Below are positions 19,370 through 62,614 of a stretch of 64,000 nucleotides of DNA, piece after piece. Source of the DNA: an uncultured Nitrospirales bacterium (GTDB lineage Bacteria > Nitrospirota > Nitrospiria > Nitrospirales > UBA8639). The notes beneath the pieces were generated by a model. The model was not told the DNA's origin and ran no database searches. It was given only the letters and a program-made list of their open reading frames with translations. The position numbers and the translations under genes were made by a program. Every line of letters starts with the position of its first letter. Position 1 is the stretch's first letter. Where the stretch lies: the NCBI GenBank assembly GCA_958295805.1, contig OY282373.1, positions 1,645,001-1,709,000 on the forward strand, given 5' to 3'.

Positions 19370-19810
19370 AAACACCCCCCAAACGCCCGGTGGTGCCGGT
19401 CCTTGGGTGTCAGCCGGGCGAAAGACCCTTCTCAGGCGTGGGTCGATTTCGGCATGGCCGGATCGTCGAGAGAGGGAACCAGGTCCGGCCAGGCGGCCAG
19501 CACCAAGCTGCGAGCGCGCTTGAGATCGCTGACGCCCCCCTGTCTCGGCGGCCCCCGCCAGCCGCGGCACATCCCGGTGCTCCCCTCTCTGCCCCTGAGC
19601 CCCGAACGGTTCCCGGTCTGCGACGGTGTGGATCGCCATGACTTGGCGAAACAAGGCGCGGAGTGGTTGCGCATCCCGGCTTTGGCCATTATTCCCAGAA
19701 TGACAGAGGAGGGGAGAATGCGGCGGAGTGCGGAATGGCGGCGGCCATGCCATGAACGTGCACAGCATCACCCCTGGATTCCCGCTCCCCGATAACAAAT
19801 GTCGGGGATC
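19370..19810. repeat. Intergenic region ending in an inverted R1 repeat
   Basis: No recognisable gene lies between proA and the IS element, although long frames are open because of the high GC content. From about 19690 the sequence matches, inverted, the long repeat seen at 21661-21940 and 28358-28560. This includes the GTGCACGTTCATGG-like flank and the hairpin CCCCGATAACAAATGTCGGGG at 19788-19808. The IS30-type element begins within three bases of this hairpin. Confidence 0.6.
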
Positions 19811-20837
19811 TAAATTCACAAACGAAGTGCAACACCTTGCTAAGGTGTTGTCATGGGAACCCACTATCACCACCTCACCCTTGAAGACCGATGTGACATG
19901 GCCCGTCTACACGCCGACGGGCGCTCGCTCCGGCAAATCGCGGCAACTCTGGATCGCCCGCCATCAACCGTGGCTCGCGAGATGAAGCGCAATCGTTCCC
20001 GCATCCAGGGCTACCAGCCCCGCTATGCGGAGCAGCAGGCCCGCGCCCGCCGGTGGCGCGGCGCCAAGTTGGACCGCGATGCCCCCCTTCGCACCACAGT
20101 CCTCACCCACCTCCAACAGGGCTGGACCCCCGAGCAGGTGGCCGGGCGCCTCGCCCGCGACGCCGGTCGGTCGGTTATCTCCCACGAAACCATCTACCGC
20201 TTCCTCTACGCCCAGATCGCCCGGACGAAAACCTATGCCTGGCGCCACTATCTCCCTCACGCCAAAGCCACCCGCGGCCGCCGACGCACACGTCGCAGCC
20301 CCGCCGCCTTGATGGCTCACCGCCGCCCCCTCGCCGACCGCCCCGCCGCCGCCGCCGACCGCCAGACTCCCGGCCATTGGGAAGCCGATCTGATGCTCTT
20401 CCGCACCTACGGCCAAGCCGTCCTCACTCTCCACGAGCGCACCTCCCGCCTCCTCCTTGCCGTGCGCCCCCCGGGCAAAGCCGCCGCCCCCATCGCCCAC
20501 GCCCTCACCCACCTCCTCACCCCAATGCCCCCTCACGGCCGCCAGACCGTCACCTTCGACAACGGCACCGAATTCGCCTGCCATCACCACCTCCATGCCC
20601 TCGGCATTGAGACCTTCTTCTGTGACCCCTACGCCCCCTGGCAGAAAGGCGGCGTCGAGAACGCCATCGGCCGTCTGCGCCGCACGCTGCCCCGCAAAAC
20701 CGACTTGGCCACCCTGTCCGACCAGCGGTTTCATCACTTGGTTCATGCGTACAACCACACCCCGAGGAAATGCCTCGGGTATGCCACGCCCGCGGAGATT
20801 TTTATCCACCAAGTGTTGCACTTGAAATGTGAATCCA
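19811..20837 (+). mobile_element. IS30-family insertion sequence, complete copy
   Basis: The element is about 1.03 kb. Its ends are imperfect inverted repeats: left TAAATTCACAAACGAAGTGC and right (reverse complement) TGGATTCACATTTCAAGTGC, both continuing AACAC. One transposase gene fills it. Element ends were set from a second, deleted copy at 27654-28357, which has the same two termini. No target duplication is evident. The left end abuts an R1 hairpin. Confidence 0.88.
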
Positions 20838-21145
20838 CAGCGTGGGGGGGGGGGGGGGGGGGCTTGGGCTTGGATTGCTTGGCTGATCACGGCATTTTGC
20901 CCAGCACCATGAAGACTCGCCCCATGAAGCTGGCTCAGAAAGGGCCAGGGGGTCAGTGCCGGCTAGACGCGCCGCGGGGCGGCTGCGCGCGTGCCCCCGT
21001 CCCGTTTCGTCAATGGCTCGGGGAGCCGGGCCGGCTGGGCGTGCCGCGGGGCGGCTGCGCGCGTGCTCCCGTCCCGTTTCGTCGATGGCTCGGGGAGCCG
21101 GGCCGGCTGGGCACTCTGCGGGGCGGCTGCGCGCTGGCCCGCTGA
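19853..21145 (+). CDS. IS30-family transposase, reading through past the element end
   Basis: The N-terminal part holds the helix-turn-helix LTLEDRCDMARLHADGRSLR and SRIQGYQPRYAEQQA typical of IS30. The DDE catalytic domain shows HWEADLM (D), TFDNGTEF (D) and WQKGGVENAIGRLRR (E). The element-encoded part ends at about HQVLHLKCEST (20837). The frame then runs through a 19-base G tract and a 72-base tandem repeat before stopping at 21145, so roughly 100 C-terminal residues are not transposase. Whether the frame truly continues depends on the exact length of the G tract. The catalytic residues are intact, so the element could be active. Confidence 0.85.
   Translation: MGTHYHHLTLEDRCDMARLHADGRSLRQIAATLDRPPSTVAREMKRNRSRIQGYQPRYAEQQARARRWRGAKLDRDAPLRTTVLTHLQQGWTPEQVAGRLARDAGRSVISHETIYRFLYAQIARTKTYAWRHYLPHAKATRGRRRTRRSPAALMAHRRPLADRPAAAADRQTPGHWEADLMLFRTYGQAVLTLHERTSRLLLAVRPPGKAAAPIAHALTHLLTPMPPHGRQTVTFDNGTEFACHHHLHALGIETFFCDPYAPWQKGGVENAIGRLRRTLPRKTDLATLSDQRFHHLVHAYNHTPRKCLGYATPAEIFIHQVLHLKCESTAWGGGGGGLGLDCLADHGILPSTMKTRPMKLAQKGPGGQCRLDAPRGGCARAPVPFRQWLGEPGRLGVPRGGCARAPVPFRRWLGEPGRLGTLRGGCALAR
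20844..20862 (+). repeat. Homopolymer of 19 G
   Basis: An uninterrupted G19 run lies six bases past the right end of the IS element. Its length sets the reading frame of the downstream transposase fusion. Tracts of this length are prone to slippage in cells and to sequencing error, so the count should be treated with care. Confidence 0.9.
20961..21143 (+). repeat. 72-base GC-rich tandem repeat, about 2.5 copies
   Basis: Units start at 20961, 21033 and 21105 (the last is partial). The period of 72 bases equals 24 codons, so both strands stay open: plus reads RGGCARAPVPF(R)WLGEPGRLG units and minus reads AQPARLPEPxTKRDGxTRAA units. Units differ by only a few bases, which suggests recent expansion. 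Confidence 0.88.
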
Positions 21146-26867: not shown

Positions 26868-27404
26868 ATGAGCACCCTCATTTATGACACCCACAAATTT
26901 ATCACCAAGATGACCAACGCGGGCATGCCGCAACCACAAGCCGAGGTCTTGGCCGAATCCCACGTGGAATTGATGGAGACCACGCTAGCCACAAAGCAGG
27001 ACTTGAAAGACCTCAAAACCGAACTCACCGGCGAGATGAAAAACCTCGAAGGTAAGCTCACCGGCGAAATGAAAGACCTCAGAGCCGAACTTACCAGCGA
27101 GATGAAAGACCTCAGAGCCGAGTTCACCAGCGAGATGAAAGATCTCGAAGGCAAGCTCACCAGCGAAATGAAAGACCTCGAAGGCAAGCTCACCAGCGAG
27201 ATGAAAGACCTCAGAGCCGAGATCACCAGCGAAATGAAAGACCTCGAAGGCAAGCTCACCGGTAAGATGAAAGACCTCAGAGGCGAGATCGATAAAGCAA
27301 CCCTCAAGACTATCGGAATCATCACCGCGATTATGGTTGTCTTGTTGACCGCGAGCAATGCCGTGCTGATAGTCTTCCTGAGATACCTACTCGCAGCCCC
27401 TTAA
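26868..27404 (+). CDS. Membrane-anchored coiled-coil protein with 11-residue repeats (DUF1640-like)
   Basis: The first ~45 residues (DTHKFITKMTNAGMPQPQAE and on) match the start of bacterial DUF1640/CCDC90-like proteins. A coiled coil built of nearly identical 11-residue units follows (EMKDLRAELTS / EMKDLEGKLTS, about ten copies), then one C-terminal membrane segment (IGIITAIMVVLLTASNAVLI). The encoding DNA repeats with a 33-base period, so copy-number changes keep the frame. Two relatives lie at 40203 and 43491. The function of bacterial members is not known to me. Confidence 0.75.
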   Translation: MSTLIYDTHKFITKMTNAGMPQPQAEVLAESHVELMETTLATKQDLKDLKTELTGEMKNLEGKLTGEMKDLRAELTSEMKDLRAEFTSEMKDLEGKLTSEMKDLEGKLTSEMKDLRAEITSEMKDLEGKLTGKMKDLRGEIDKATLKTIGIITAIMVVLLTASNAVLIVFLRYLLAAP

Positions 27405-27653
27405 TGAAGCGAAGCCCCGCACTCCAATCTTCACCGAGTAACTTCACATCCGCCTTGCACCCGCCGAGCAACACACCCGGCTTGCCCACGTCGAGAAAGT
27501 CAGGGATGCCGTAGACAGCGTCGACGTGGAGACACCGCGTCAGGCTCAATACCTTCAAGCAGACTTCATAATCTCTCTCCCCCCGGAAGAGGGCCGGGGT
27601 GAAGGAGAATGAGCATTGCCTCCCTCCGTCATTCCCGCTTCCTCCCGTCATTG
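27405..27653. other. Unassigned stretch with an open minus-strand frame
   Basis: On the minus strand this segment reads without stops into the remnant transposase tail. It includes VDAVYGIPDFLDVGKPGVLL and DVKLLGEDWSAGLRFIKG, which look protein-like. I do not recognise the family and see no start codon with a ribosome binding site. An R3-like hairpin (CTCTCCCCCCGGAAGAGGGC) lies at about 27574-27595. Confidence 0.3.
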
Positions 27654-28357
27654 TGGATTCACATTTCAAGTGCAAGACTTGGTGGATAACAATCTCCGCG
27701 GGCGTGGCATACCCGAGGCACTTCCGCGGGGTGTGGTTGTAGGCATGAACCAGGTGATGAAACCGCTGGTCGGAGAGGGTCGCCAAAGCGGTTTTGCGGG
27801 CAGCGTGCGGCGGCTTTGCCCGGGGGTCGGTCGGCGAGGGGGCGGCGGTGAGCCATCAAGGCGGTGGGGCTGCGGCGTTTGCGCCGGCGGCCGCGGGTGG
27901 CTTTCGCGTGAGGGAGATAGTGCCGCCACGCATAGGTTTTCGTCCTGGTGATCTGAGCGTAGAGGAACCGGTAGATGGTTTCGTGAGAAAGAACCGGTCG
28001 CCCGGCGTCGCGGGCGAGGCGCCCGGCCACCTGCTCGGGGGTCCACCCCTGCTGGAGGCGGGTGAGGACCGTGGTGCGTAGCGCAGCGTCGCGGGTCAGC
28101 CGGGCGCCGCGCCACCGGCGGGCGCGGGCCTGCTGCTCGGCATACCGGGGCTGGTAGCCCTGGGTGCGGGAGCGATTGCGCTTCATTTCGCGAGCCACGG
28201 TTGATGGCGGGCGATCCAGAGCTGCCGCGATTTGCCGGAGCGAGAACCCGGCGGCGTGTAGGCAGGCCAAGTCACATCGGTCTTCCAGGGTGAGGTGGTG
28301 AGAGTGGGTGCCCATGACAACACCTTAGCAAGGTGTTGCACTTCGTTTGTGAATTTA
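27654..28357 (-). mobile_element. Internally deleted IS30-family copy
   Basis: Both ends match the complete element at 19811-20837, but only ~704 bases remain. The N-terminal DNA-binding part of the transposase is intact (LTLEDRCDLACLHAAGFSLR to RRPLADRP). Most of the DDE core is missing in two deletions, with a short PGKAAA stretch kept between them, and the final ~45 residues (TLSDQRFHHLVHAYNHTPRK) are present in a shifted frame. It cannot encode an active transposase but keeps ends that a full copy could act on. It is also inserted in an R1-type repeat, whose flank continues at 28358. Confidence 0.88.
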
Positions 28358-28640
28358 GAGAATCCAGGGATGATGCTATGCACGTTCACGGCGTGGCCGC
28401 CGCCATTCTTCCTCCTCTGTCATTCTGAGCGAGGGGAAGAATCTGGCTTCCCGTTTGCACGGGCACGACGCCGGGGGCAGGGGATAGAGGATCGAGTGCG
28501 GGCATTTCTTCCCCTCACCCCAGCCCTCTCCCGCAAGGGGAGAGGGAGGAAGAGTGGGGCTTCTCCCGCCATTGAATCACTCCTATCATTCCTGGCTCCC
28601 TCTTGTCATTCCCGCGAAGGCGGGAATGACAAGGGATGGC
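28358..28640 (+). repeat. Composite R1-R2-R3 repeat and a perfect hairpin
   Basis: After the IS end, GAATCCAGGGATGATGC resumes the R1 unit. R2 (TCATTCTGAGCGAGGGGAAG, ~28421) and R3 (~28513-28550) follow, in the same order as at 21661-21912. At ~28607-28635 lies a perfect hairpin, TTGTCATTCCCGCG / CGCGGGAATGACAA-like arms around AAGG. No gene is supported in 28358-28700. Confidence 0.72.
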
Positions 28641-39336: not shown

Positions 39337-40137
39337 ATGCCTTCCGCCACGTCCATTTTGACGTTACTCACCGACTTCGGGGAACGCGACCACTTCGTTG
39401 CCAGCATGAAAGGGGTGATTCTGGGCATCAATCATCAGGCGCGCATCATCGACGTCTCCCATCACGTGACCCCGCACTCCATTGACGAAGCCGCGTTTCT
39501 CTTGAACGCCTGTTATCACTATTTTCCCGACGGGACCGTCCACGTCGTCGTGGTGGACCCGGGCGTCGGGTCATCACGCCGCGGGTTACTCGTCACAACG
39601 TCGCGATTTTTCTTTATCGCCCCGGACAACGGCGTGCTGACGCCCGTGTTCGAAAACGAACGGTCCGTAGAAGTTCGGCAGATCGAAAATCGTCAATTTC
39701 GCTTGGATTCGGAAGGGGCCACCTTTGACGGCCGGGATTTATTCGCCCCGTCCGCGGCTTGGCTGACGCGAGGACAGACGCCTGGAGCCTATGGCCGCTT
39801 GATCTCTGATTATGAAACGCGACCGATTCCCAAACCTGAGGTGCGGGAAGGAATCCTTCACGGTCGCGTTGCCCACGTTGACCGATTCGGCAACGCGACG
39901 ACCAACGTCACGCTCGCGGACGTTCACTCACTCCAAGCCGTCACCAAGCGTACAAGCATTTCGTTTGCAATCGGCGGCGTCACGATCAACGCGCTGAAAA
40001 CGCACTATGAGCAGGGGTCCAAAGAACAACCCGAAGCCCTCATCAACAGCAACGGGTATCTGGAAGTGTTTCTGAAAGAAGCGAGCGTCGCCGAAACGTT
40101 CAACCTCAAAGCCGGCGAGACGCTGGAGATCCAGTGA
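39337..40137 (+). CDS. SAM hydrolase / S-adenosyl-L-methionine hydroxide adenosyltransferase (DUF62)
   Basis: Members of this family split SAM to adenosine and methionine using water or hydroxide, and are related to fluorinases. The full-length 266-residue protein starts LTLLTDFGERDHFVASMKG and has VDPGVGSSRR, APDNGVLTPV and FDGRDLFAPSAAW. The last 113 codons, from LISDYETRPIPK, are repeated almost unchanged at 41835-42175 and 43085-43425. This is the only complete copy. It lies four bases after greA. Confidence 0.93.
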   Translation: MPSATSILTLLTDFGERDHFVASMKGVILGINHQARIIDVSHHVTPHSIDEAAFLLNACYHYFPDGTVHVVVVDPGVGSSRRGLLVTTSRFFFIAPDNGVLTPVFENERSVEVRQIENRQFRLDSEGATFDGRDLFAPSAAWLTRGQTPGAYGRLISDYETRPIPKPEVREGILHGRVAHVDRFGNATTNVTLADVHSLQAVTKRTSISFAIGGVTINALKTHYEQGSKEQPEALINSNGYLEVFLKEASVAETFNLKAGETLEIQ

Positions 40138-40202
40138 GAGTCGGTAGATTACAACGTAACGTTGATGGTATAATCTCCGCCAACGTCGGGATTGTTTAAG
40201 TT

Positions 40203-40730
40203 ATGACACCACCAAGTACCCTCATCCTTGACACTCATGCGTCCATCCACGAATTGGTGAAGGCTGGCATGCCCGAACGCCAGGCCGAAACCGTCGTGCG
40301 TCAACAGGCGAGGCTGCTCGAACAGAATCTCGCCACCAAACACGACATCGAAACGGTAAAACACGACATCGAAACGGTAAAACACGACATCGAAACGGTA
40401 AAGCGCGACATCGAAACCCTCCGGCAAGAAACCAAACACGACATCGAAGTGCTCCGGCAAGAAACCAAACACGACATCGAAACGGTAAAACACGACATCG
40501 AAACGGTAAAGCGCGACATCGAAACCCTCCGGCAAGAAACCAAGACCGACATCGAAACCCTCCGGCAGGAAACCAAAGCTAACATCGAAACCCTCCGACA
40601 CGACGTGGAAATATTACGGCAGGAAACCACGGCCCGCATCGAAACCGCGAAGGTTGATCTCATTAAATGGATGTTCGGTCTCGGCCTTGGTATCGCCAGT
40701 CTGGCGGTTGCCGCGGACAAGCTTTTCTGA
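40203..40730 (+). CDS. Coiled-coil membrane protein with variable repeats (DUF1640-like), copy 1
   Basis: The 175-residue product begins LILDTHASIHELVKAGMPER, like the protein at 26868. It then consists of 7- and 11-residue coiled-coil units (KHDIETV, RDIETLRQETK) and ends with one membrane segment, WMFGLGLGIASLAVAADKLF. Its first 50 and last 30 residues are nearly identical to the copy at 43491, while the coiled coil is 32 residues longer. This points to recent duplication with in-frame repeat change. Confidence 0.75.
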   Translation: MTPPSTLILDTHASIHELVKAGMPERQAETVVRQQARLLEQNLATKHDIETVKHDIETVKHDIETVKRDIETLRQETKHDIEVLRQETKHDIETVKHDIETVKRDIETLRQETKTDIETLRQETKANIETLRHDVEILRQETTARIETAKVDLIKWMFGLGLGIASLAVAADKLF

Positions 40731-40759
40731 CCACGTCCACGAACCAAGCGCATCATCGC

Positions 40760-41834
40760 TCAAGTTGTTCCGATTTTCTCCATCAACTGCCGCCGCACGT
40801 CCTTGCCATTGACGTTTCTCTCCACGACGATGAACAAACCCTGACCATTGCTTCTTTGCTCCCAAAGTGCGCCGATCGTCCGCTTTTCGGTGGTATCCGA
40901 TCCCTCTGCGATATGGGCGCCTTTGTATTCCACAATAAGAAACCGTCCATCGTTCAGGAGGGCAACGAAGTCGGGGTAGAATCTACCCGTTGCCGTCGGC
41001 AGCCGGAATGACTCAGGATGGCGGGCGACGTTGCGAATCCAGTACTTCACGTCCGGCAAGCGGTCAAGGGCCTGCGCACATTGGACTTCTTCACCGTCGA
41101 TCGCGCCGTCGAAGGCGGGCACGTTGTCGGGGCCAAGAAAATGCTTGCCCGGCTTCCAGTGTCCACGATGCCGCCGTTCATCACCGTACATACCGTCTTT
41201 GAAAGCAAAGGCCGCGTCGAAAGAAACCTCGACTTTTGCCGCGGGCGCAAAGAGACCGTGCTGATAGGCCGTCTCCCGTTCCTGCCGTCGAACGTCGTCA
41301 AGCTTGTTCGCAATTTTTCGAGCCAGCAAGAACTTGCAACGCATGAGCGCAGAGACATGGAGCGTGCGCACGTGAATCAGGTGTCCGACGAGGTCACGCA
41401 GCCATTTCAGCAGTTCGTTCTGGCGAAGGTCCGGCCCACGTACCTGTCCGTCCAGCCAGAGGGTTAACGCTTCGGGAGTCCAGCCTTCCACCGCAATGTT
41501 CAACGCAAGCTGTTCCTGCTCGTTGATGAATTGATGAGTCACACGTTTTCCGTCAATGTCGATTTCAAAGCTGCGTGCCGTTTCCCTGATCATGAATTCG
41601 TCTTCGTCCAACTTGGCCGGGTAATACAGCAGCGACCAGTCGTGATCCTCCACGAACAAGTCCGTATCAGCGAACTCCAGCTTGCCCTGAATTTCGCACG
41701 TGAGGCGCGGCACGTTGAACCGCTCACCCCGCTTGGCGGGAGACAACGACGCCTTGACCGTCGTTCGATGGTTCTCGACAGCCTCGGCAAACGCCGGACG
41801 TTTGGCCTCCGGGACCACCGCGAGCATCGCCGTT
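40760..41834 (-). pseudogene. Truncated type III restriction subunit: C-terminal nuclease half, copy 1
   Basis: The minus-strand frame matches the last ~355 residues of the Res protein at 43952-46591 almost exactly. It includes the nuclease motif YPDFVALLNDGRFLIVEYKG and ends MEKIGTT. The helicase half is absent. At its 5' side the frame runs on into antisense SAM-hydrolase DNA (to 41965), which would supply a false N-terminus. The nuclease part itself is intact, so a free-standing product is conceivable. Confidence 0.85.
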
Positions 41835-42175
41835 GCTTGATCTCCGATTATGAAACGCGACCGATTCCCAAACCCGAGGTGCGGGAAGGAATCCTTCACG
41901 GTCGCCTTGCCCACGTTGACCGATTCGGCAACGCGGCGACCAACGTCACGCTCGCGGACGTTCACTCACTCCAAGCCGTCACCAAGCGTACAAGCATTTC
42001 GTTTGCAATCGGCGGCGTCACGATCAACGCGCTGAAAACGCACTATGAGCAGGGGTCCAAAGAACAACCCGAAGCCCTCATCAACAGCAACGGGTATCTG
42101 GAAGTGTTTCTAAAAGAAGCGAGCGTCGCCGAAACGTTCAACCTCAAAACCGGCACGACGCTGGAGATTCGATGA
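41835..42175 (+). pseudogene. SAM hydrolase 3' fragment, copy 2
   Basis: The fragment encodes the last 113 residues of the SAM hydrolase (DYETRPIPKPEVREGILHGR onward). Its final residues differ slightly (KTGTTLEIR instead of KAGETLEIQ). The catalytic N-terminal two-thirds is missing, and the 5' end is joined to antisense res sequence. Confidence 0.85.
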
Positions 42176-42223
42176 GGGCCCGACGCAACACCGTAGGAAA
42201 ATGGGCACTTGTGCAGCACCGAC

Positions 42224-42619
42224 TCACTGCTTCCTCAACTCCGGAAAATACGTGGGATAGAACCCACGATCTCGCGTAAGAAAAGTATCGGCCAGAGTAA
42301 CGGCATGGGCGCCAATGAGGAAATCAGAAATGATTCGACTCCTTGGCCCGCCGTCTTGGCGGTATCGCAACCAGCGCAAGCCTGCTTCGTAGGCGATGGT
42401 GGTATTGATGGGGGAGATGGTCACGCTGATTTGGCTCAATGCCTCGTCAAGTTTAGTGCGGTCATTGAAAGCTGGAACCAATTCCGCGTACACGATGTCG
42501 CAGATGAGAATGACTCCACGGTCATAGGCGTCTCGAAGTCTTTCCTTTGACGTGGGCCCGTGGCGCTCGTCAGGGAGGAACACATCCAGTAAGACACTTG
42601 TGTCAACGGCGGTGATCAC
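42224..42619 (-). CDS. vapC: PIN-domain toxin VapC
   Basis: VapC toxins are RNases that cut tRNA or rRNA. The 131-residue protein starts with AVDTSVLLDVF, holding the first acidic residue. It has further conserved acids in IVYAELVPAF and SDFLIGAHA, and near the end LTRDRGFY. Its ATG overlaps the stop of vapB by four bases. It sits in the gap of tandem copy 2. Confidence 0.88.
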   Translation of the reverse strand: MITAVDTSVLLDVFLPDERHGPTSKERLRDAYDRGVILICDIVYAELVPAFNDRTKLDEALSQISVTISPINTTIAYEAGLRWLRYRQDGGPRSRIISDFLIGAHAVTLADTFLTRDRGFYPTYFPELRKQ

Positions 42620-42831
42620 CTTCCGCGAATATCTTTAATATAATCGTCGGTGTTCCCACTGCGACCCAGAATGGCGTACAACCGCTCCACCGGATGATTC
42701 GAAGCCGTCCGTTTTCGGATAAGCAGACCATGATTGGTCGGAGTAATCTCAACTTCGACGTTGCAATTCATGCCGAAGCGGTCCCTTAGTTGCTTGGGGA
42801 TGGTAATTTGTCCTCGTTCCGAGATACGCAT
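42616..42831 (-). CDS. vapB: AbrB/SpoVT-type antitoxin VapB
   Basis: The 71-residue protein begins MRISERGQITIPKQLRDRFG, a clear AbrB-type swapped-hairpin DNA-binding domain. The C-terminal part should bind VapC. The ATG at 42831 has GAGGAAG upstream; the longer frame to 42891 lacks a better start. Such antitoxins usually repress their own operon. Confidence 0.88.
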   Translation of the reverse strand: MRISERGQITIPKQLRDRFGMNCNVEVEITPTNHGLLIRKRTASNHPVERLYAILGRSGNTDDYIKDIRGR

Positions 42832-42920
42832 GTCTTCCTCGCATGAATGACGGTTGCATGAAATCATACTGCGCTTATCACCGCAAGGCAAGAATATCGG
42901 GTGACGTACCCCCGTTTAGG

Positions 42921-43084
42921 CAAACTCCAGCTTGCCCTGAATTTCGCACGTAAGGCGCGGTACGTTGAACGGCTCGCCCCGCTTGGCGGGAGACAACGAC
43001 GTTTCGACCGTCGTTCGATGGTTCTCGACAGCCTCGGCAAACGCCGGACGTCTGGCCTCCGGGACCACCGCGAGCATCGCCGCC
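42921..43084 (-). pseudogene. Short internal fragment of res, copy 2
   Basis: The ~55 codons encode AMLAVVPEARRPAFAEAVEN through EIQGKLEFA. They are closer to copy 1 than to the complete res gene, which reads AILATVPEAERQMFANAVEQ at the same place. The fragment is fused at one side to the vapB upstream region and at the other to SAM-hydrolase DNA. Confidence 0.8.
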
Positions 43085-43425
43085 GCTTGATCTCTGATTA
43101 TGAAACGCGACCGATTCCCAAACCTGAGGTGCGGGAAGGAATCCTTCACGGTCGCATTGCCCACGTTGACCGATTCGGCAACGCGGCGACCAACGTCACG
43201 CTCGCGGACGTTCACTCACTCCAAGCCGTCACCAAGCGTACAAGCATTTCGTTTGCAATCGGCGGCGTCACGATCAACGCGCTGAAAACGCACTATGAGC
43301 AGGGGTCCAAAGAACAACCCGAAGCCCTCATCAACAGCAACGGGTATCTGGAAGTGTTTCTGAAAGAAGCGAGCGTCGCCGAAACGTTCAACCTCAAAGC
43401 CGGCGAGACGCTGGAGATCCAGTGA
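43085..43425 (+). pseudogene. SAM hydrolase 3' fragment, copy 3
   Basis: The last 113 codons of the SAM hydrolase are repeated, ending KAGETLEIQ as in the complete gene. The N-terminal part is absent. The DNA on its 3' side (to 43490) is the same as after the complete gene, including the promoter-like spacer before the coiled-coil gene. Confidence 0.85.
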
Positions 43426-43490
43426 GAGTCGGTAGATTACAACGTAACGTTGATGGTATAATCTCCGCCAAGGTCGGGATTGTTTAAGTT

Positions 43491-43922
43491 ATGACACCAC
43501 CAAGTACCCTCATCCTTGACACTCATGCGTCCATCCACGAATTGGTGAAGGCTGGCATGCCCGAACGCCAGGCCGAAACCGTCGTGCGTCAACAGGCGAG
43601 GCTGCTCGAACAGAATCTCGCCACCAAACACGACATCGAAACGGTAAAACACGACATCGAAGTGCTCCGGCAAGAAACCAAGGCCAACATCGAAACGGTA
43701 AAGCGCGACATCGAAGTGCTCCGGCAAGAAACCAAGGCCGACATCGAAACGGTAAAACACGACATCGAAGTGCTCCAGCAAGAAACCAAGGCCAACATCG
43801 AAACCCTCCGGCAGGAAACCATGGCCCGCATCGAAACCGCGAAGGTTGATCTCATTAAATGGATGTTCGGTCTCGGCCTTGGTATCGCCAGTCTGGCGGT
43901 TGCCGCGGACAAGCTTTTCTGA
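43491..43922 (+). CDS. Coiled-coil membrane protein with variable repeats (DUF1640-like), copy 3
   Basis: The 143-residue protein has the same start (LILDTHASIHELVKAGMPER) and membrane tail as the gene at 40203. Its coiled coil is mostly made of 11-residue units such as RDIEVLRQETK and ANIETVK blocks. The mix and number of units differ from copy 1. The gene lies tail to tail with res. Confidence 0.75.
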   Translation: MTPPSTLILDTHASIHELVKAGMPERQAETVVRQQARLLEQNLATKHDIETVKHDIEVLRQETKANIETVKRDIEVLRQETKADIETVKHDIEVLQQETKANIETLRQETMARIETAKVDLIKWMFGLGLGIASLAVAADKLF

Positions 43923-43951
43923 CCACATCCACAAACCAAGCGCATCATTGC

Positions 43952-46591
43952 TCAAGCCGTTCCGATTTTCTCCATCAACTGCCGCCGCACGTCCTTGCCA
44001 TTGACGTTTTTCTCCACGACGATGAACAAACCCTGACCATTGCTTCTTTGCTCCCAAAGTGCGCCGATCGTCCGCTTTTCGGCGGTATCCGATCCCTCTG
44101 CGATATGGGCGCCTTTGTATTCCACAATAAGAAACCGTCCATCGTTCAGGAGGGCAACGAAGTCGGGGTAGAATCTATCCGTTGCCGTCGGCAGCCGGAA
44201 GGACTCAGGATGGCGGGCGACGTTGCGAATCCAGTACTTCACGTCCGGCAAGCGGTCAAGGACCTGCGCACATTGGACTTCTTCACCGTCGATCGCGCCG
44301 TCGAAGGCGGGCACGTTGTCGGGGCCAAGAAAATGCTTGCCCGGCTTCCAGCGTCCACGATACCGCCGTTCATCACCGTACATGCCGTCTTTGAAAGCAA
44401 AGGCTGCGTCGAAAGAAACCTCGACTTTTGCCGCGGGCGCAAAGAGACCGTGCTGATAGGCCGTCTCCCGTTCCTGCCGTCGAACGTCGTCAAGCTTGTT
44501 CGCGATTTTTCGAGCCAGCAAGAACTTGCAGCGCATGAGCGCGGAGACGTGGATCGTGCGCACGTGAATCAGATGATTGACGAGGTCACGCAGCCATTTC
44601 AGCAGTTCGTTCTGGCGAAGGTCCGGCCCACGTACCTGTCCGTCCAGCCAGAGGGTTAACGCTTCGGGAGTCCAGCCTTCCACCGCGATGTTCAACGCAA
44701 GCTGTTCCTGCTCGTTGATGAATTGATGAGTCACACGTTTTCCGTCAATGTCGATTTCAAAGCTGCGTGCCGTTTCCCTGATCATGAATTCGTCTTCGTC
44801 CAACTTGGCCGGGTAATACAGCAGCGACCAGTCATGATCCTCCACGAACCGATCCGTATCGGCAAATTCCAGCTTGCCCTGGATTTCGCACATGAGGCAC
44901 GGCACGGTGAACCGCTCGCCCCGTTCGGCCGGGGACAACGACGCTTCGACCCTTTTTCGATACTGCTCAACGGCATTGGCGAACATCTGGCGTTCGGCCT
45001 CCGGGACCGTCGCGAGGATCGCCTCTTCCAGACCAACGTCCACGTTGCCAGTCACGGCGATTTCGACCTCTCCGCCATCGGTCTCGCGCACGGCTAACCC
45101 CTCGTGCCCCATTTTCTCCAGCGCAGACAGGGTTTCCGATAAGGCCACCAGGGGATAGCTGAACGTCGGTTTCGTTTTTTCAGGCGGATCAAACAAATCG
45201 TCTTTGCCAATATCGGGCAGATTCTGCTGGATGTTTTCGCGTGCCTCCTCTTCCTCAAACCCCATGTTCACCAATTTGTCGGTCAGCGCACGTGCGGCCT
45301 CCCCAAAAGACGGTTCGGACACGTAGGCGTACGCTCTGTTCAACGCGACGGCCCGACGCCGTTTCGCATAGGGCATCCGCAACACCCGACCGAAAAGCTG
45401 TTCCACGTTTTGCGCGCTCTGAATGCGCGACACCGAACAGAAAACGTAGGCGAACGAGCAGTCCCAGCCTTCTTTCAGTGCCTCCACCGTGATGACGTAC
45501 TCAATCGGACATTTAGGGTCGAACAGGTCGATGGCATCCAAGTCCCGTTGGTCGCCAGTGGCAACGGCAATGGCGTGCTCGGGAACGTGTTCAACGTCCA
45601 ACAGGTGCCTTTTCAACGCCTCAACGGTGACATCCTGGTTCTTCTTCTGCGCCTGAAACAGGACGATGGGCCGGATGGAGCCGGTGTCACCTCGGGCGGT
45701 TTCCGCGAGCGCGGCACGCATGGCCACGGCCCCGGCCACCGCGTTCTGCCACGTGTCGTGTTCGGACAGCATGATCGGCAATTTGATCATCTCCTCGCGT
45801 TTTAATTCTTGAGCCGTGACGCTGTACAGGATGTTGGATTTGGGTCGGGGCGTGGCCGTGAACTCGATAATCGCGCACGGATTCACGCGAGTCTGCACAT
45901 CGCGGGTCAGGCCCGTGACCGCGTTGTGTGCCTCGTCCACGATCATCAACGGTCGGTGTCCGTGCATCAGGTTGGCAAACGAAAACTTGACGCCGCCGTT
46001 CTCCAGTTTCTCCAGCCCCGGCAGCGTCTTCGGAAACGTTGAAAAATGCGGCTCCAGGTCCTCGTTGTGGGCATAGACCTTGCGACCTTCGGTGTTCGTC
46101 ACCCGCAGCGTTTGAATGGTGCCGACTACGATGCAGCAATGGCCACGGAGATCGTGCGGACGGATAAGGGTAAAATCCGCAATATCGAACACGCGCACCC
46201 GACCGTCGAAGGCGTCGTCCAGAACCCGTCGATACGCGTGACGGGTGTGCTTCAGCGCCGCCACGGTTTGCAGCCGGATCGTATTCGTCGGCACGAGCCA
46301 CAGAACCAATGGATAATCCTTCTCAACCCAGGCGTCGCGTGCAATGCGCACCGCGTGAGCGCCGAGAATCGTCTTGCCGCCGCCGGTCGGCAGCCGCAGG
46401 CACACGTAGGGGACGTTCGGCAAATCCTCAAGGGGCGTGGTATAGCTGCCGCCGTAACGTCCGAGCCTGTCGGCGCATTCGGGCTCGTTCGTAATCGTTT
46501 CGTAGGCGTTCTTCGGTCCGGCCATGCGAGCCTCCTCAAAGAAGCGCCGCAGAACGGCAAGCGTGTCGGATTGATATTGTTTCAGTTTCAT
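43952..46591 (-). CDS. res: Type III restriction enzyme Res subunit (helicase-nuclease)
   Basis: Res needs the Mod subunit and ATP to cut DNA between two unmethylated sites. The 879-residue protein has Walker A PTGGGKT at 68-74, a DEAH box (IVDEAHNAV) near 217-225 and FTATPRPKSN. Helicase motif VI-like sequence EQLFGRVLRMP follows. The C-terminal nuclease core, PDFVALL...FLIVEYKG, lies near 808-826. It is complete. Its ATG is preceded by GGAAG. A 36-base stretch covering its first codons is duplicated 163 bases upstream. It follows mod on the same strand with a repeat-filled gap. Confidence 0.93.
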   Translation of the reverse strand: MKLKQYQSDTLAVLRRFFEEARMAGPKNAYETITNEPECADRLGRYGGSYTTPLEDLPNVPYVCLRLPTGGGKTILGAHAVRIARDAWVEKDYPLVLWLVPTNTIRLQTVAALKHTRHAYRRVLDDAFDGRVRVFDIADFTLIRPHDLRGHCCIVVGTIQTLRVTNTEGRKVYAHNEDLEPHFSTFPKTLPGLEKLENGGVKFSFANLMHGHRPLMIVDEAHNAVTGLTRDVQTRVNPCAIIEFTATPRPKSNILYSVTAQELKREEMIKLPIMLSEHDTWQNAVAGAVAMRAALAETARGDTGSIRPIVLFQAQKKNQDVTVEALKRHLLDVEHVPEHAIAVATGDQRDLDAIDLFDPKCPIEYVITVEALKEGWDCSFAYVFCSVSRIQSAQNVEQLFGRVLRMPYAKRRRAVALNRAYAYVSEPSFGEAARALTDKLVNMGFEEEEARENIQQNLPDIGKDDLFDPPEKTKPTFSYPLVALSETLSALEKMGHEGLAVRETDGGEVEIAVTGNVDVGLEEAILATVPEAERQMFANAVEQYRKRVEASLSPAERGERFTVPCLMCEIQGKLEFADTDRFVEDHDWSLLYYPAKLDEDEFMIRETARSFEIDIDGKRVTHQFINEQEQLALNIAVEGWTPEALTLWLDGQVRGPDLRQNELLKWLRDLVNHLIHVRTIHVSALMRCKFLLARKIANKLDDVRRQERETAYQHGLFAPAAKVEVSFDAAFAFKDGMYGDERRYRGRWKPGKHFLGPDNVPAFDGAIDGEEVQCAQVLDRLPDVKYWIRNVARHPESFRLPTATDRFYPDFVALLNDGRFLIVEYKGAHIAEGSDTAEKRTIGALWEQRSNGQGLFIVVEKNVNGKDVRRQLMEKIGTA

Positions 46592-46759
46592 CGAATTGCT
46601 ACTTCCGCTCTTCCTTGGCCATGAAGAAGTCTTTTGGCAGGTTGAGCCAGGGGAGGGGGCCGAGTCCGGGACGCGGTTCGAGACCCCCCACCCTTGCCCT
46701 CCCCCTCAAGGGGGGAGGGAACGGCGTGTCGGATTGATATTGTTTCAGTTTCATCGAAT
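46561..46759 (-). repeat. Direct duplication of the res start region around an R3 hairpin
   Basis: The 36 bases at 46561-46596 (res start and first ten codons) recur at 46724-46759. Between them lies GC-rich DNA with the hairpin CCCTCCCCCTCAAGGGGGGAGG. The upstream copy starts a 51-codon frame with the same first ten residues (MKLKQYQSDT). It stops at 46599, just before the real res start, so it may act as a leader peptide. Confidence 0.8.
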
Positions 46760-46799
46760 GTCTGCTTTCGACTTCCCTCGCCCCTAAAGAGACCTTCGC

Positions 46800-47136: not shown

Positions 47137-48690
47137 CTACTTCCTCGCTTTCACGTCATAAGGCGTTTGCTTGAAGACGGTGCGTTCGCGGTCGAGTGTC
47201 GGTTGCGTCAAGCGCGACTGTTCGCCGTACACCGTCAACGGTCCATCGAAGTCAGGTTGCTCATTGGCGATTTCCCGTCGAACTTCGTCCAGCGTGGCAC
47301 GAGTCAACACGTTGCCGCCACCCGGCCGCTTGTCACCCAGGATGCCGTTGTAGAGCAGGGCATAGGCGCGTCCGTCGTGCAAACCGAGCAGGGGAGACGT
47401 GCCGTTGCCGTTCCAAGGCCGGTCGGTCTCGCTGAACCACACGTGCGCGGCCAGCACCGGGAAACGAACGTCCCGTCGAATCTGCCCATCTTCATCGAAC
47501 ACGGGCGGTCCAAGCCGATAGAAGCGAAACCCGCCGCCGCCTTGCCAGCCGACGTTTTTGGAAATACCGCCCTGCTCGCCTTCAATGACTTTGCGAAGCC
47601 GCGGCACGCAATGCGTCACCGCGTGCTCGCCCATTTCGATGCCGATGTAGCGCCGCTCCATCTTGTGCGCCACCGCTGCCGTGGTGCCGGAACCGAGGAA
47701 GGAGTCAAGGACAAGGTCGCCAGAGTTGGTGGCTGCCTCAAAGATATATTCAATAAGGCCCTCAGGTTTAGGAAAAGCAAACTTATCCTGTAACCCAAAC
47801 ATATCCATACTCTGATACGTTCCATGCTGCGTATAATGTCCTTCAATTATAGTTTGTGGTTTACGTTTCCTTTCTTGCCCTTTCTCATCTTTGAGGTATT
47901 GTTTATAAGAAACGGTCTTGTTCCCTTTTCTTCTAGAAATCACCAATTCCCCATCTGCTAGAGCCTTATAGGAACGTTCTTTTGACCATTGCCACTGCTT
48001 TTCCGGCCAAATCTCCTCCCCATTGTCAAGTATGATTGGATATCTAAGATTAGGGCGATCATCCATGCTCGTCGTTGCCAAAGGCTGCAAACGATATGGC
48101 CCTCTCTCCGAAAATTTGTCATCCCGATATTTGTAGTATTTTTTAACGATGTCAGGGTCAGGAGGCAAAAACATATCAGGGAATGTATTTATATCTTTTG
48201 TGTAACACAGGATTTCTTCATGAAGCCCCACAAACCATTTTGCCTTGGCGCCACCACCATAACTCTTCTTCCAAATAAACGAGGTAAGGAAGTTGGCCCT
48301 TCCAAATACTTCATCCATAATGACCTTGAGATAATGTGCCTCGTTGTCGTCAATGGAGACCCAAATCGAACCGTCCTCCGCAAGCAATTCCCGCAGAAGT
48401 TCCAGCCGTGGCCACATCATCGCCAGCCACTTTGTATGTTCAAGGTTGTCGTCGTAGTGCTCGAAGGCCGAGCGGGTGTTATACGGCGGATCAATATAAA
48501 TACACTTCATTCGCCCGGCGTAGAACGGCAGCAACGCCTTGAGTGCCTCAAGATTATCGCCCTGCATCAGAATGTTCCCGGATTCCAAGTCCCCCGCGGA
48601 CAAGTCAGGCACTTCATCCAACAGCCGATACGGCACGCGCGCAGCAGCCCCAATATCCTCATCTCTCGTCAGCCAGTGCAGTATCGGCAT
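47137..48690 (-). CDS. mod: Type III adenine-specific DNA methyltransferase Mod
   Basis: Mod recognises the target site and methylates adenine. The catalytic DPPY is at 67-70 in YIDPPYNT, and the SAM-binding FLGSGTTA follows near 330-337, the beta-class order. Between them (roughly residues 130-310) lies the target recognition domain. It is AT-rich at the DNA level and uses codons unlike the flanks. The start ATG overlaps the stop of the pentapeptide-repeat gene by one base. The 517-residue protein ends with a long extra domain after the methylase core, as other Mod proteins have. Confidence 0.93.
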   Translation of the reverse strand: MPILHWLTRDEDIGAAARVPYRLLDEVPDLSAGDLESGNILMQGDNLEALKALLPFYAGRMKCIYIDPPYNTRSAFEHYDDNLEHTKWLAMMWPRLELLRELLAEDGSIWVSIDDNEAHYLKVIMDEVFGRANFLTSFIWKKSYGGGAKAKWFVGLHEEILCYTKDINTFPDMFLPPDPDIVKKYYKYRDDKFSERGPYRLQPLATTSMDDRPNLRYPIILDNGEEIWPEKQWQWSKERSYKALADGELVISRRKGNKTVSYKQYLKDEKGQERKRKPQTIIEGHYTQHGTYQSMDMFGLQDKFAFPKPEGLIEYIFEAATNSGDLVLDSFLGSGTTAAVAHKMERRYIGIEMGEHAVTHCVPRLRKVIEGEQGGISKNVGWQGGGGFRFYRLGPPVFDEDGQIRRDVRFPVLAAHVWFSETDRPWNGNGTSPLLGLHDGRAYALLYNGILGDKRPGGGNVLTRATLDEVRREIANEQPDFDGPLTVYGEQSRLTQPTLDRERTVFKQTPYDVKARK

Positions 48691-50024
48691 CAGCTATCGC
48701 CCGCCTCCTCAGATGTGGCCTTTTTGTACTCGGCAATCCATTCTTCTGCTTCTTGTGCCGAATAGGCACCTATAACGGCGACGCTGTTTTCCGGCAGTTG
48801 ATGACTTGCCGGTTTTCCAACATGCGGCATCAGTTCCTTTCTCAACCTCATTTTTTCTCCATCAGATAAACCCTCAACAAGAGAATCCACATCTTCTTGG
48901 CTCAATCCGCCCTCAAAAATTGCTCCACTCGGATCACTGTCTTGGCCAATTTGACTTCTTATTTGCTGTTCAAATGGGAGAGGCATCCCTTGGTTAGTGA
49001 TGCCTTGTAGTTGTGCCCACTCAAGTCGAGCCTCTTGCAGGTGCGTCCTCCCAAGGTCAGCCCCTTGCAGGTGTGCCCCCCCAAGTCGAGCCCCTTGCAG
49101 GTGTGCCTCACGAAGCCAAGCCCCTTGCAGGTGTGCCTCCCCAAGCCAAGCCCCTTGCAGGTGTGCTCTCTCAAGGTTAGCCCCTTGCAGGTGTGCCCCT
49201 AAAAGGGTAGCCCCTTGCAGGTGTGCCTCACGAAGCTGAGCCCCTTGCAGGTGTGCCTCCCAAAGCTGAGCCCCTTGCAGGTGTGCTCCCTTAAGGTTAG
49301 CCTCTTGCAGGTATGCCCCCCCAAGCCGAGCCTCTTGCAAGTATGCCTCAATCAAGACGGCTTTTTCTAAACGTGCCTCATTGAGATCAGCCCCGTTCAG
49401 CCAACTCCCTTGTAAGTTAATATGTAGCCCCTTGAAGACCTCATGCTTTTGCACGAAAAGCAGGGTCAGCAAGCTTTGGATTTCTTCCGAGGGTTTCGAT
49501 TTGTGCTTCTTTCTATATTCGTTTTCCCCCGTCGTCCGGCGGATCTGGGCACAGAGAATGTCCAGGACGGTTTGGCGCAAATCTTCGGTATCTTGTGCCA
49601 GATGGAAGAGTTCGTAAGCACCGCCCAAACGCACGGAGTCCGACTGATGCCCCAAGTGCTCAATGGCATTTTTCAGGCGTTCCTGTCGTTGCCCCTTTTC
49701 GGCATTTTGATTGGCTTTTGCCTGCTCTCCAGTAGCTTCAGCTTGTGCCTTCGCGGCTTCTTCCATCGCCTTGGCACGTTTATGAGAAGCCAAGGCTTGC
49801 AGGGCGAGCAGGATGCCACCCATGCTGATTCCCAGGAATTTCAGCGCCTCAGATTTTTGAGATACTCCTAGAAGTTGAAAAATCCATGTTTCAATGGTCT
49901 CCAGGAACATGACTGCCAGGAAAAGCAGGAACAAGAAGATGAGAAGACCGGCAAGGATGACGTTAAGCCTATTGACAAGAATGTGCCACAATCTTGTGAG
50001 GAAACGTCTGAGCAGGGGAGTCAT
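48690..50024 (-). CDS. Membrane-anchored pentapeptide-repeat protein coupled to mod
   Basis: The 444-residue protein begins with two membrane segments (about 19-43 and 60-80), then an Ala/Gln/Lys-rich coiled coil. A helical domain (LKNAIEHLGHQSDSVRLGGA onward) follows, of the kind often found before pentapeptide repeats. From about 205 to 335 it has A(H/Y)LQxAxLxx repeats, which form a right-handed beta-helix in related proteins. The C-terminal ~100 residues are acidic and of unknown fold. Its stop overlaps the mod start, so they are translated together. A defence-related or regulatory role is inferred from this coupling only. Confidence 0.85.
   Translation of the reverse strand: MTPLLRRFLTRLWHILVNRLNVILAGLLIFLFLLFLAVMFLETIETWIFQLLGVSQKSEALKFLGISMGGILLALQALASHKRAKAMEEAAKAQAEATGEQAKANQNAEKGQRQERLKNAIEHLGHQSDSVRLGGAYELFHLAQDTEDLRQTVLDILCAQIRRTTGENEYRKKHKSKPSEEIQSLLTLLFVQKHEVFKGLHINLQGSWLNGADLNEARLEKAVLIEAYLQEARLGGAYLQEANLKGAHLQGAQLWEAHLQGAQLREAHLQGATLLGAHLQGANLERAHLQGAWLGEAHLQGAWLREAHLQGARLGGAHLQGADLGRTHLQEARLEWAQLQGITNQGMPLPFEQQIRSQIGQDSDPSGAIFEGGLSQEDVDSLVEGLSDGEKMRLRKELMPHVGKPASHQLPENSVAVIGAYSAQEAEEWIAEYKKATSEEAGDS
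49021..49350 (-). repeat. 30-base minisatellite in the pentapeptide-repeat gene
   Basis: Eleven units of 30 bases are visible on the plus strand. Eight consecutive units share the same 15-base core CCCCTTGCAGGTGTG. Each unit encodes two pentapeptides. The near identity at DNA level implies recent expansion, and unit changes would keep the reading frame. Confidence 0.9.
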
Positions 50025-62067: not shown

Positions 62068-62192
62068 TTTTATAATTTGACATAATAATCATTATCCGAC
62101 ATTTCAAAATATTTTGAAAATCGCGTAACAACCAATTATGACTTTCTTGGAAACCACCGCTCATCTTCTTCGGGATAGCTGAGAGCCATTTT
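62068..62192. promoter_or_regulatory. AT-rich spacer with a perfect palindrome
   Basis: Just past plsY the DNA becomes AT-rich, in contrast with its surroundings. It contains ATAATCATTAT and a perfect 16-base palindrome TTCAAAATATTTTGAA at 62103-62118. This could be an operator or the edge of an inserted segment. I cannot assign a regulator. Confidence 0.3.
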
Positions 62193-62457
62193 TATCAAGG
62201 CTCTCTTTCTGTCATTCCCGACATCTTTCATCGGGAATCCAGCATTTTTGCTTTTTCCTCCATCTGCAAAGATACAGCCCCTGGATTCCCGCTTCCGCGA
62301 GAATGACAGATTGGGGTTATTTTGTATCAAGGCTCTCTTTCTGTCATTCCCGACATCGTTCATCGGGAATCCAGCATTTTGGCTTTTTCCTCCATCCGCA
62401 AAGATACAGCCTCTAGATTCCCGCTTCCGCCGGAATTACAGATTGGGGTCATTTTCG
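62193..62457 (+). repeat. Direct repeat of a 132-base hairpin unit
   Basis: Two copies start at 62193 and 62325. Each runs from TATCAAGGCTCTCTTTCTG through TCATTCCCGACAT...ATCGGGAATCCAG and then CTGGATTCCCGCTTCCG (or TAGATTCCC...) to GATTGGGGT. They differ at a few positions. Within each, the two CCAG/CTGG-ended parts are inverted with respect to each other, so each copy can fold on itself. Confidence 0.85.
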
Positions 62458-62614
62458 TATCAACGTCAGATCGTTCGCTTTCTAAAAGAAGCAACAGTAG
62501 GACGGTCAATGGGATTCCTCAGTGCTTGCAGAAAGTTGACGAGTGACGAGTTGATGAAGCAATCTCCTTTTTATGCGAGATATCCTTGATCAGCCTTTTT
62601 TTCGCCGAGAACGA

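Follow-up and report, generated by a model that had tools for sequence, protein, structure and literature searches.

How did the 3' end of a conserved metabolic gene, samH, come to stand three times in direct repeat beside a type III restriction-modification (RM) unit, and did the repetition yield a new defence system? We addressed this question in a window of 64,000 nucleotides (the whole stretch of DNA that was analysed) using self-comparison of the window, motif searches of the whole genome and comparison with 59 related genomes, 53 of which had a samH homologue. The array is a real and unusually readable record of gene reshuffling, an old recombination mosaic, and in all likelihood it is scar tissue rather than a new defence system.

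Layout and joints of the array

The repeated part of the locus comprises samH, the tails displaced from it and the joints at which they meet res:

39337..40137, plus strand: samH, intact SAM hydroxide adenosyltransferase (SAM hydrolase; Pfam SAM_HAT_N and SAM_HAT_C), with the 3' part from 39797 taken as tail T1
39797..41834, no strand: unit 1, composed of samH tail T1, cc1 and res C-terminal fragment 1 (self-alignment)
41835..42175, plus strand: samH tail T2, without a start, its 3' end with ancestral bases (tail comparison with homologues)
43085..43425, plus strand: samH tail T3, without a start (self-comparison)
41662..42168, no strand: joint J12, res edge fused to T2, with the fusion near 41834 (self-comparison)
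42912..43418, no strand: joint J23, 170-bp res edge fused to T3, with the fusion near 43084 (96% identical to J12)

Self-alignment of the window located the 3' third of samH in three copies starting at 39797, 41835 and 43085 that were 97-99% identical, and self-comparison gave 300-nt ungapped copies starting at 39794/39797, 41832/41835 and 43082/43085. The first-pass annotation had one “junction sequence” open a unit at each of these three positions; the threefold repetition was borne out by the self-alignment (300-nt copies 98-99% identical), but in unit 1 the sequence marks no junction and lies inside the intact samH (39337-40137). The motif GCTTGATCTCYGATTATG had exactly three matches in the whole 2.9 Mb genome and its reversed control had none. 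A site-specific element integrating at GCTTGATCTC was rejected because the genome has this motif nowhere but at the three copies and because the other end of the unit lies in the middle of res. A viral origin was likewise rejected, the tail pattern being found in no IMG/VR contig.

Units 1 and 3 have the common order samH tail, coiled-coil gene (cc) and C-terminal part of res, and match over 2 kb. Unit 1 (39797-41834) measures 2038 bp, against 1942 bp for the part of unit 3 that matches it (43085-45026), a difference of exactly 96 bp that lies entirely within the coiled-coil stalk (175 vs. 143 codons), in agreement with the earlier description of the two copies. Its account of the second copy as two ends with vapBC between them also held, since unit 2 consists of a 334 bp samH tail, an intact vapBC and 170 bp of res. 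The cargo of the tails differs (T1-cc, T2-vapBC, T3-cc).

The true novel joint, at which res is fused to a samH tail, is present in two copies, at about 41834 and 43084, and reads GAGCATCGCC on the res side in the copies and TATGGCCGCTTGATC on the samH side. No long homology between samH and res was seen at the joint, where the overlap is at most a few bases, and the first duplication was thus illegitimate; for later exchange the repeats of 0.5-2 kb can serve. Both right-hand joints lie at an identical position inside res, so that the joint must have been made once and then copied. An assembly artefact, in which strain variants or a repeated locus were joined in tandem, is the least credible explanation of all, given that the unusual joint is present twice with differences at 21 of 507 bases and that the genome is one 2.9 Mb contig (99.85% complete). 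Since the copies differ mutually and the two joints differ as well, it is very unlikely that a single locus was misassembled, and the joint is real and old.

Genomic context and divergence of the copies

The coiled-coil genes, Res fragment 1 and the type III RM genes lie downstream of samH:

40203..40730, plus strand: cc1, CCDC90-like/DUF1640 coiled-coil protein of 175 aa with a long stalk and a C-terminal hydrophobic anchor (Pfam PF07798, E 2.4e-13)
40760..41831, minus strand: Res fragment 1, an open frame covering Res residues about 523-879 (93% protein identity to Res 523-878)
43491..43922, plus strand: cc3, CCDC90-like/DUF1640 protein of 143 aa (Pfam PF07798, E 1e-13; PDB 6h9l, E 1.9e-9)
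43952..46591, minus strand: res, intact type III restriction subunit of 879 aa (PADLOC REase_III, E 8.3e-176, residues 1-875)
47137..48690, minus strand: mod, type III methyltransferase of 517 aa (PADLOC MTase_III, E 1.4e-163)

The gene samH, 79-80% identical to its genus relatives, was single-copy in all 53 relatives with a match. In the genus members examined, bioA comes about 0.5-1.7 kb after samH, and in a single genome from a different genus the two are 3.5 kb apart. At this locus the gap measures 11 kb and contains cc, res, mod and vapBC together with a pentapeptide-repeat gene and some smaller frames. The cc-res neighbourhood was absent from the relatives compared. The comparison with sister genomes that had been proposed for finding a single-copy ancestor thus succeeded for samH, but no single-copy form of the entire unit was present among these relatives, which included no same-species genome and showed no duplication intermediates.

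A full-length Res with helicase and nuclease parts and an adjacent Mod identify the RM unit as type III; sequence comparison of Res with solved structures gave a negligible match only. The identity of Res to alphaproteobacterial homologues is 73% but does not exceed 69% for the homologues in its own genus, which sit elsewhere on the chromosome, and the type III mod-res pair was therefore probably acquired horizontally. Complete frames were found for samH, cc1, cc3, vapBC, res and mod, all of which probably remain functional; the tails T2 and T3, like both res fragments, are likely to be inert leftovers. A pentapeptide-repeat gene (48690-50024) directly adjoins mod and shares its strand. The end of res away from the array carries a second small duplication, a 67-bp direct repeat (82%; 46561-46627 and 46724-46790) that covers the res start codon and the sequence just upstream. 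The genome has two further, distant type III res loci (370469-371848 and 1721732-1723879), one of them about 30 kb from the array.

The coiled-coil proteins scored 50.7 and 52 bits against the Pfam cut-off of 33.5; these scores and the match to 6h9l place them in the CCDC90-like (DUF1640) family, of which this genome has many members. They share with the family (PDB 6h9l; PMC4786415) the profile match, the variable stalk, the C-terminal hydrophobic segment and a stalk start, ATKHDIE, that fits the published [aliphatic]-A-T-K-[polar]-[DE]; what sets cc1 and cc3 apart is that they are tandem paralogues whose main difference is the length of the stalk. The stalk of cc3 is 32 residues shorter than that of cc1, which fits three 7-residue steps plus one of 11. 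Each cc copy has kept a TATAAT box in the samH-cc spacer, not called as a promoter in the formal scan. Another CCDC90-like frame of the cc1/cc3 family (178 aa, window 26868-27404) contains an internal repeat of about 33 bp (27004-27290).

Divergence between units 1 and 3 was uneven, with three differences in the first 550 bp, whereas over its final 170 bp the res fragment was about 79% identical. The res body gave a dS of 0.063 and a dN of 0.018 (biased to synonymous change, ratio 0.28), in contrast to a dS of 0.44 and a dN of 0.17 for the 170-bp res edge at the joint, a sevenfold synonymous divergence (Fisher p 6e-6, computed from rounded counts). The part of Res that the edge encodes evolves fast (its identity to homologues is 47-60%, vs. 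56-76% in later bins), but this fails to explain the synonymous excess, and the difference in dS identifies the array as a recombination mosaic. Homogenisation of units 1 and 3 may have spared the edge, or the intact res may have taken up another allele upstream of about codon 580. The use of homologues as arbiter of which edge form is older, that of the copies or that of the intact Res, was rejected because both are about equally distant. The earlier suggestion of an unstable array could not be upheld in the sense of fresh instability, since the copies have drifted to a synonymous divergence of about 0.06 to 0.44 where they were not homogenised.

The middle unit and the origin of the array

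The cargo of unit 2 consists of two genes:

42224..42619, minus strand: vapC, PIN-domain toxin of 131 aa (Pfam PIN, E 5.2e-12)
42616..42891, minus strand: vapB, AbrB-type antitoxin, longest frame 91 aa (NCBIfam lp_hng_hel_AbrB, above cut-off)

The PIN-domain gene and the AbrB-type gene overlap, with the antitoxin first, as in VapBC type II systems, and are thereby assigned to them; unlike in those systems, the pair here stands between near-identical direct repeats. The match of vapC to the NCBIfam VapC model (E 1.7e-8) is below the curated cut-off and that to Pfam PIN is above it. For vapB a later ATG near 42831 is a likelier start than that of the longest frame, and a promoter-like site was found at 42891-42863 (promoter scan). 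The pair is only about 48% identical to its nearest relatives in the genus and was seen beside samH in none of the relatives examined; a native samH-vapBC neighbourhood was rejected on this ground.

At samH positions 39837, 40111, 40117 and 40118 tail T2 carries C, A, A and C, the bases present in nine of nine genus homologues, and both the intact samH (T1) and T3 have lost these ancestral bases. At three adjacent coding positions that are changed in T2, it has the base of the nine homologues each time, and six of the 11 variable tail positions fall within the last 24 bp, at the vapBC boundary. The ancestral bases and the clustering of differences at the vapBC edge are most simply explained if vapBC came with another samH 3' end, and it was probably joined to a foreign or older one when it arrived. 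T2 could instead be a plain unconverted copy with leftover bases and not foreign. If vapBC entered via the homologous tail, its right-hand boundary near 42912 was illegitimate.

Taken together, an illegitimate tandem duplication beside an RM island, followed by recombination and vapBC entry, is the explanation that we favour and hold to be probable. The RM island (cc, type III res-mod and other cargo) lies in the samH-bioA gap. Judging from the joint, a fusion from mid-res to mid-samH with an overlap of at most a few bases would have produced the tandem arrangement samH-cc-res' followed by samH tail-cc-Res. Homologous exchange across the 0.5-2 kb repeats may then have produced a third unit and, at a later stage, homogenised stretches of units 1 and 3, as their uneven identity suggests. 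In the middle unit vapBC, bringing with it a samH 3' end that was divergent or older, would have replaced cc and most of res, probably entering by recombination with the samH tail as anchor on one side and an illegitimate boundary on the other.

Sequential displacement offers an unlikely alternative. Here samH would have been entered in succession by cassettes that each brought a new 3' end for the gene (first T-vapBC, next T-cc-res'), restoring it and pushing the earlier tail downstream. Such a course has been proposed for orphan 3' ends in Rhs loci and for T6SS immunity arrays. Displaced 3' ends in arrays have been described and explained by homology-facilitated illegitimate recombination (PMC5361080), and the locus resembles these comparable arrays in having several 3' ends of one gene with differing downstream cargo and one end in use; the bases in T2 that are older than the tail now attached to samH also speak for displacement. 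Against it, independent illegitimate insertions would differ in their right-hand boundaries, and here both joints lie at one and the same res position. In comparison with the T6SS/Rhs arrays, the host gene here encodes a conserved metabolic enzyme and not a polymorphic toxin, and the samH tails are nearly identical, so that no new specificity is exchanged.

Less probable again is a plainer course, close to that of the first-pass annotation, in which unequal exchange gave three equal units, the middle one suffered a deletion, and vapBC was inserted without any connection to samH, the bases of T2 reflecting drift or lost homogenisation. It dispenses with a donor, it accommodates the unit structure and the 96-bp difference, and its general scheme of a tandem duplication from samH to res, loss of the middle and vapBC entry fits well. 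A plain deletion and insertion, however, leaves the ancestral bases of T2 unexplained, with the three adjacent coding changes matching nine homologues and the tail differences clustering at the vapBC boundary; a samH-anchored entry explains them better.

The locus lies between displaced 3'-end arrays and RM tandem duplication and, on account of its direct head-to-tail repeats with a novel joint, is filed under tandem duplication beside an RM unit. RM units beside amplifiable long direct repeats are established (Sadykov 2003 and Nobusato 2000, cited in PMC3031569). With RM tandem amplification and insertion with long target duplication the locus has in common its long direct repeats beside an RM unit, between which unequal exchange can change the copy number. 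It differs from them in that the repeat is only part of res plus the host gene end, and in that the complete mod-res is single-copy and not flanked on both sides. Neither self-comparison nor the genome motif search found samH-tail copies on the bioA side of mod-res, and with tail copies on the samH side only the locus is no long target duplication in the strict sense. If the favoured duplication history is right, the array is a well-preserved record of a defence island changing beside a conserved gene, covering an almost homology-free joint, partial homogenisation and the uptake of a toxin-antitoxin pair for which the end of a host gene served as anchor.

vapBC and Res fragment 1 as possible functional elements

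Going by the arrangement of the repeats, an exchange between units 1 and 3, or between J12 and J23, would delete vapBC and expose the cell to the toxin, and an exchange between T1 and T2 would leave vapBC in place; vapBC could thus protect part of the array. Placed between repeats, the pair would select against those collapses that delete it, and the locus would, if the favoured history holds, offer a concrete case in which stabilisation of tandem arrays by toxin-antitoxin pairs could be examined; it shows no new defence system. It is highly improbable that the array as a whole is kept by selection, with vapBC penalising deletion between the outer repeats and an otherwise unstable duplication thereby lasting until the truncated Res nuclease and the stalk-variant coiled-coil protein have diverged into a new defence pair.

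Slightly more doubtful still is a defence module already at work, in which the Res nuclease half would stand free and, like the additional coiled-coil protein, have a function of its own. In its favour, the frame of Res fragment 1 is uninterrupted and retains an intact nuclease motif, PDFV...EYKG (alignment), the best fold matches of its structure model (moderate confidence, mean pLDDT 70.9, pTM 0.47) are mostly PD-(D/E)XK nucleases, though weak, none reaching E 0.001, and another orphan Res C-terminal frame (PDFL...VEYKG) exists in another genus of the order (G053, L103 8494-9051). Against it, no promoter-like site was found near the fragment (promoter scan), GGAG lies 14 bases upstream of the nearest ATG, too far for an ordinary ribosome site, the frame stays open by chance in 14-36% of neutral simulations, conserved positions are changed (e.g., Tyr to His), and the unit is absent from relatives. 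An argument for a functional stand-alone Res half from other genomes was rejected, one orphan frame being too little. The synonymous bias of the fragment could be explained by recent homogenisation, and by selection too. With no recognisable promoter, a badly spaced ribosome site and a frame that chance could leave open, Res fragment 1 is regarded as probably an unexpressed remnant, and the proposal of “new defence modules” built from such a nuclease half is left without positive evidence.

Repeats were also observed elsewhere in the window. Inverted repeat pairs of 91-93% identity (19809-20348 with 27821-28359 and 20678-20839 with 27652-27812) and shorter related pieces between 19.7 and 28.6 kb form another mosaic region, and a repeat of about 131 bp stands in tandem at 62188-62330 and 62319-62463, its copies sharing 92% identity.
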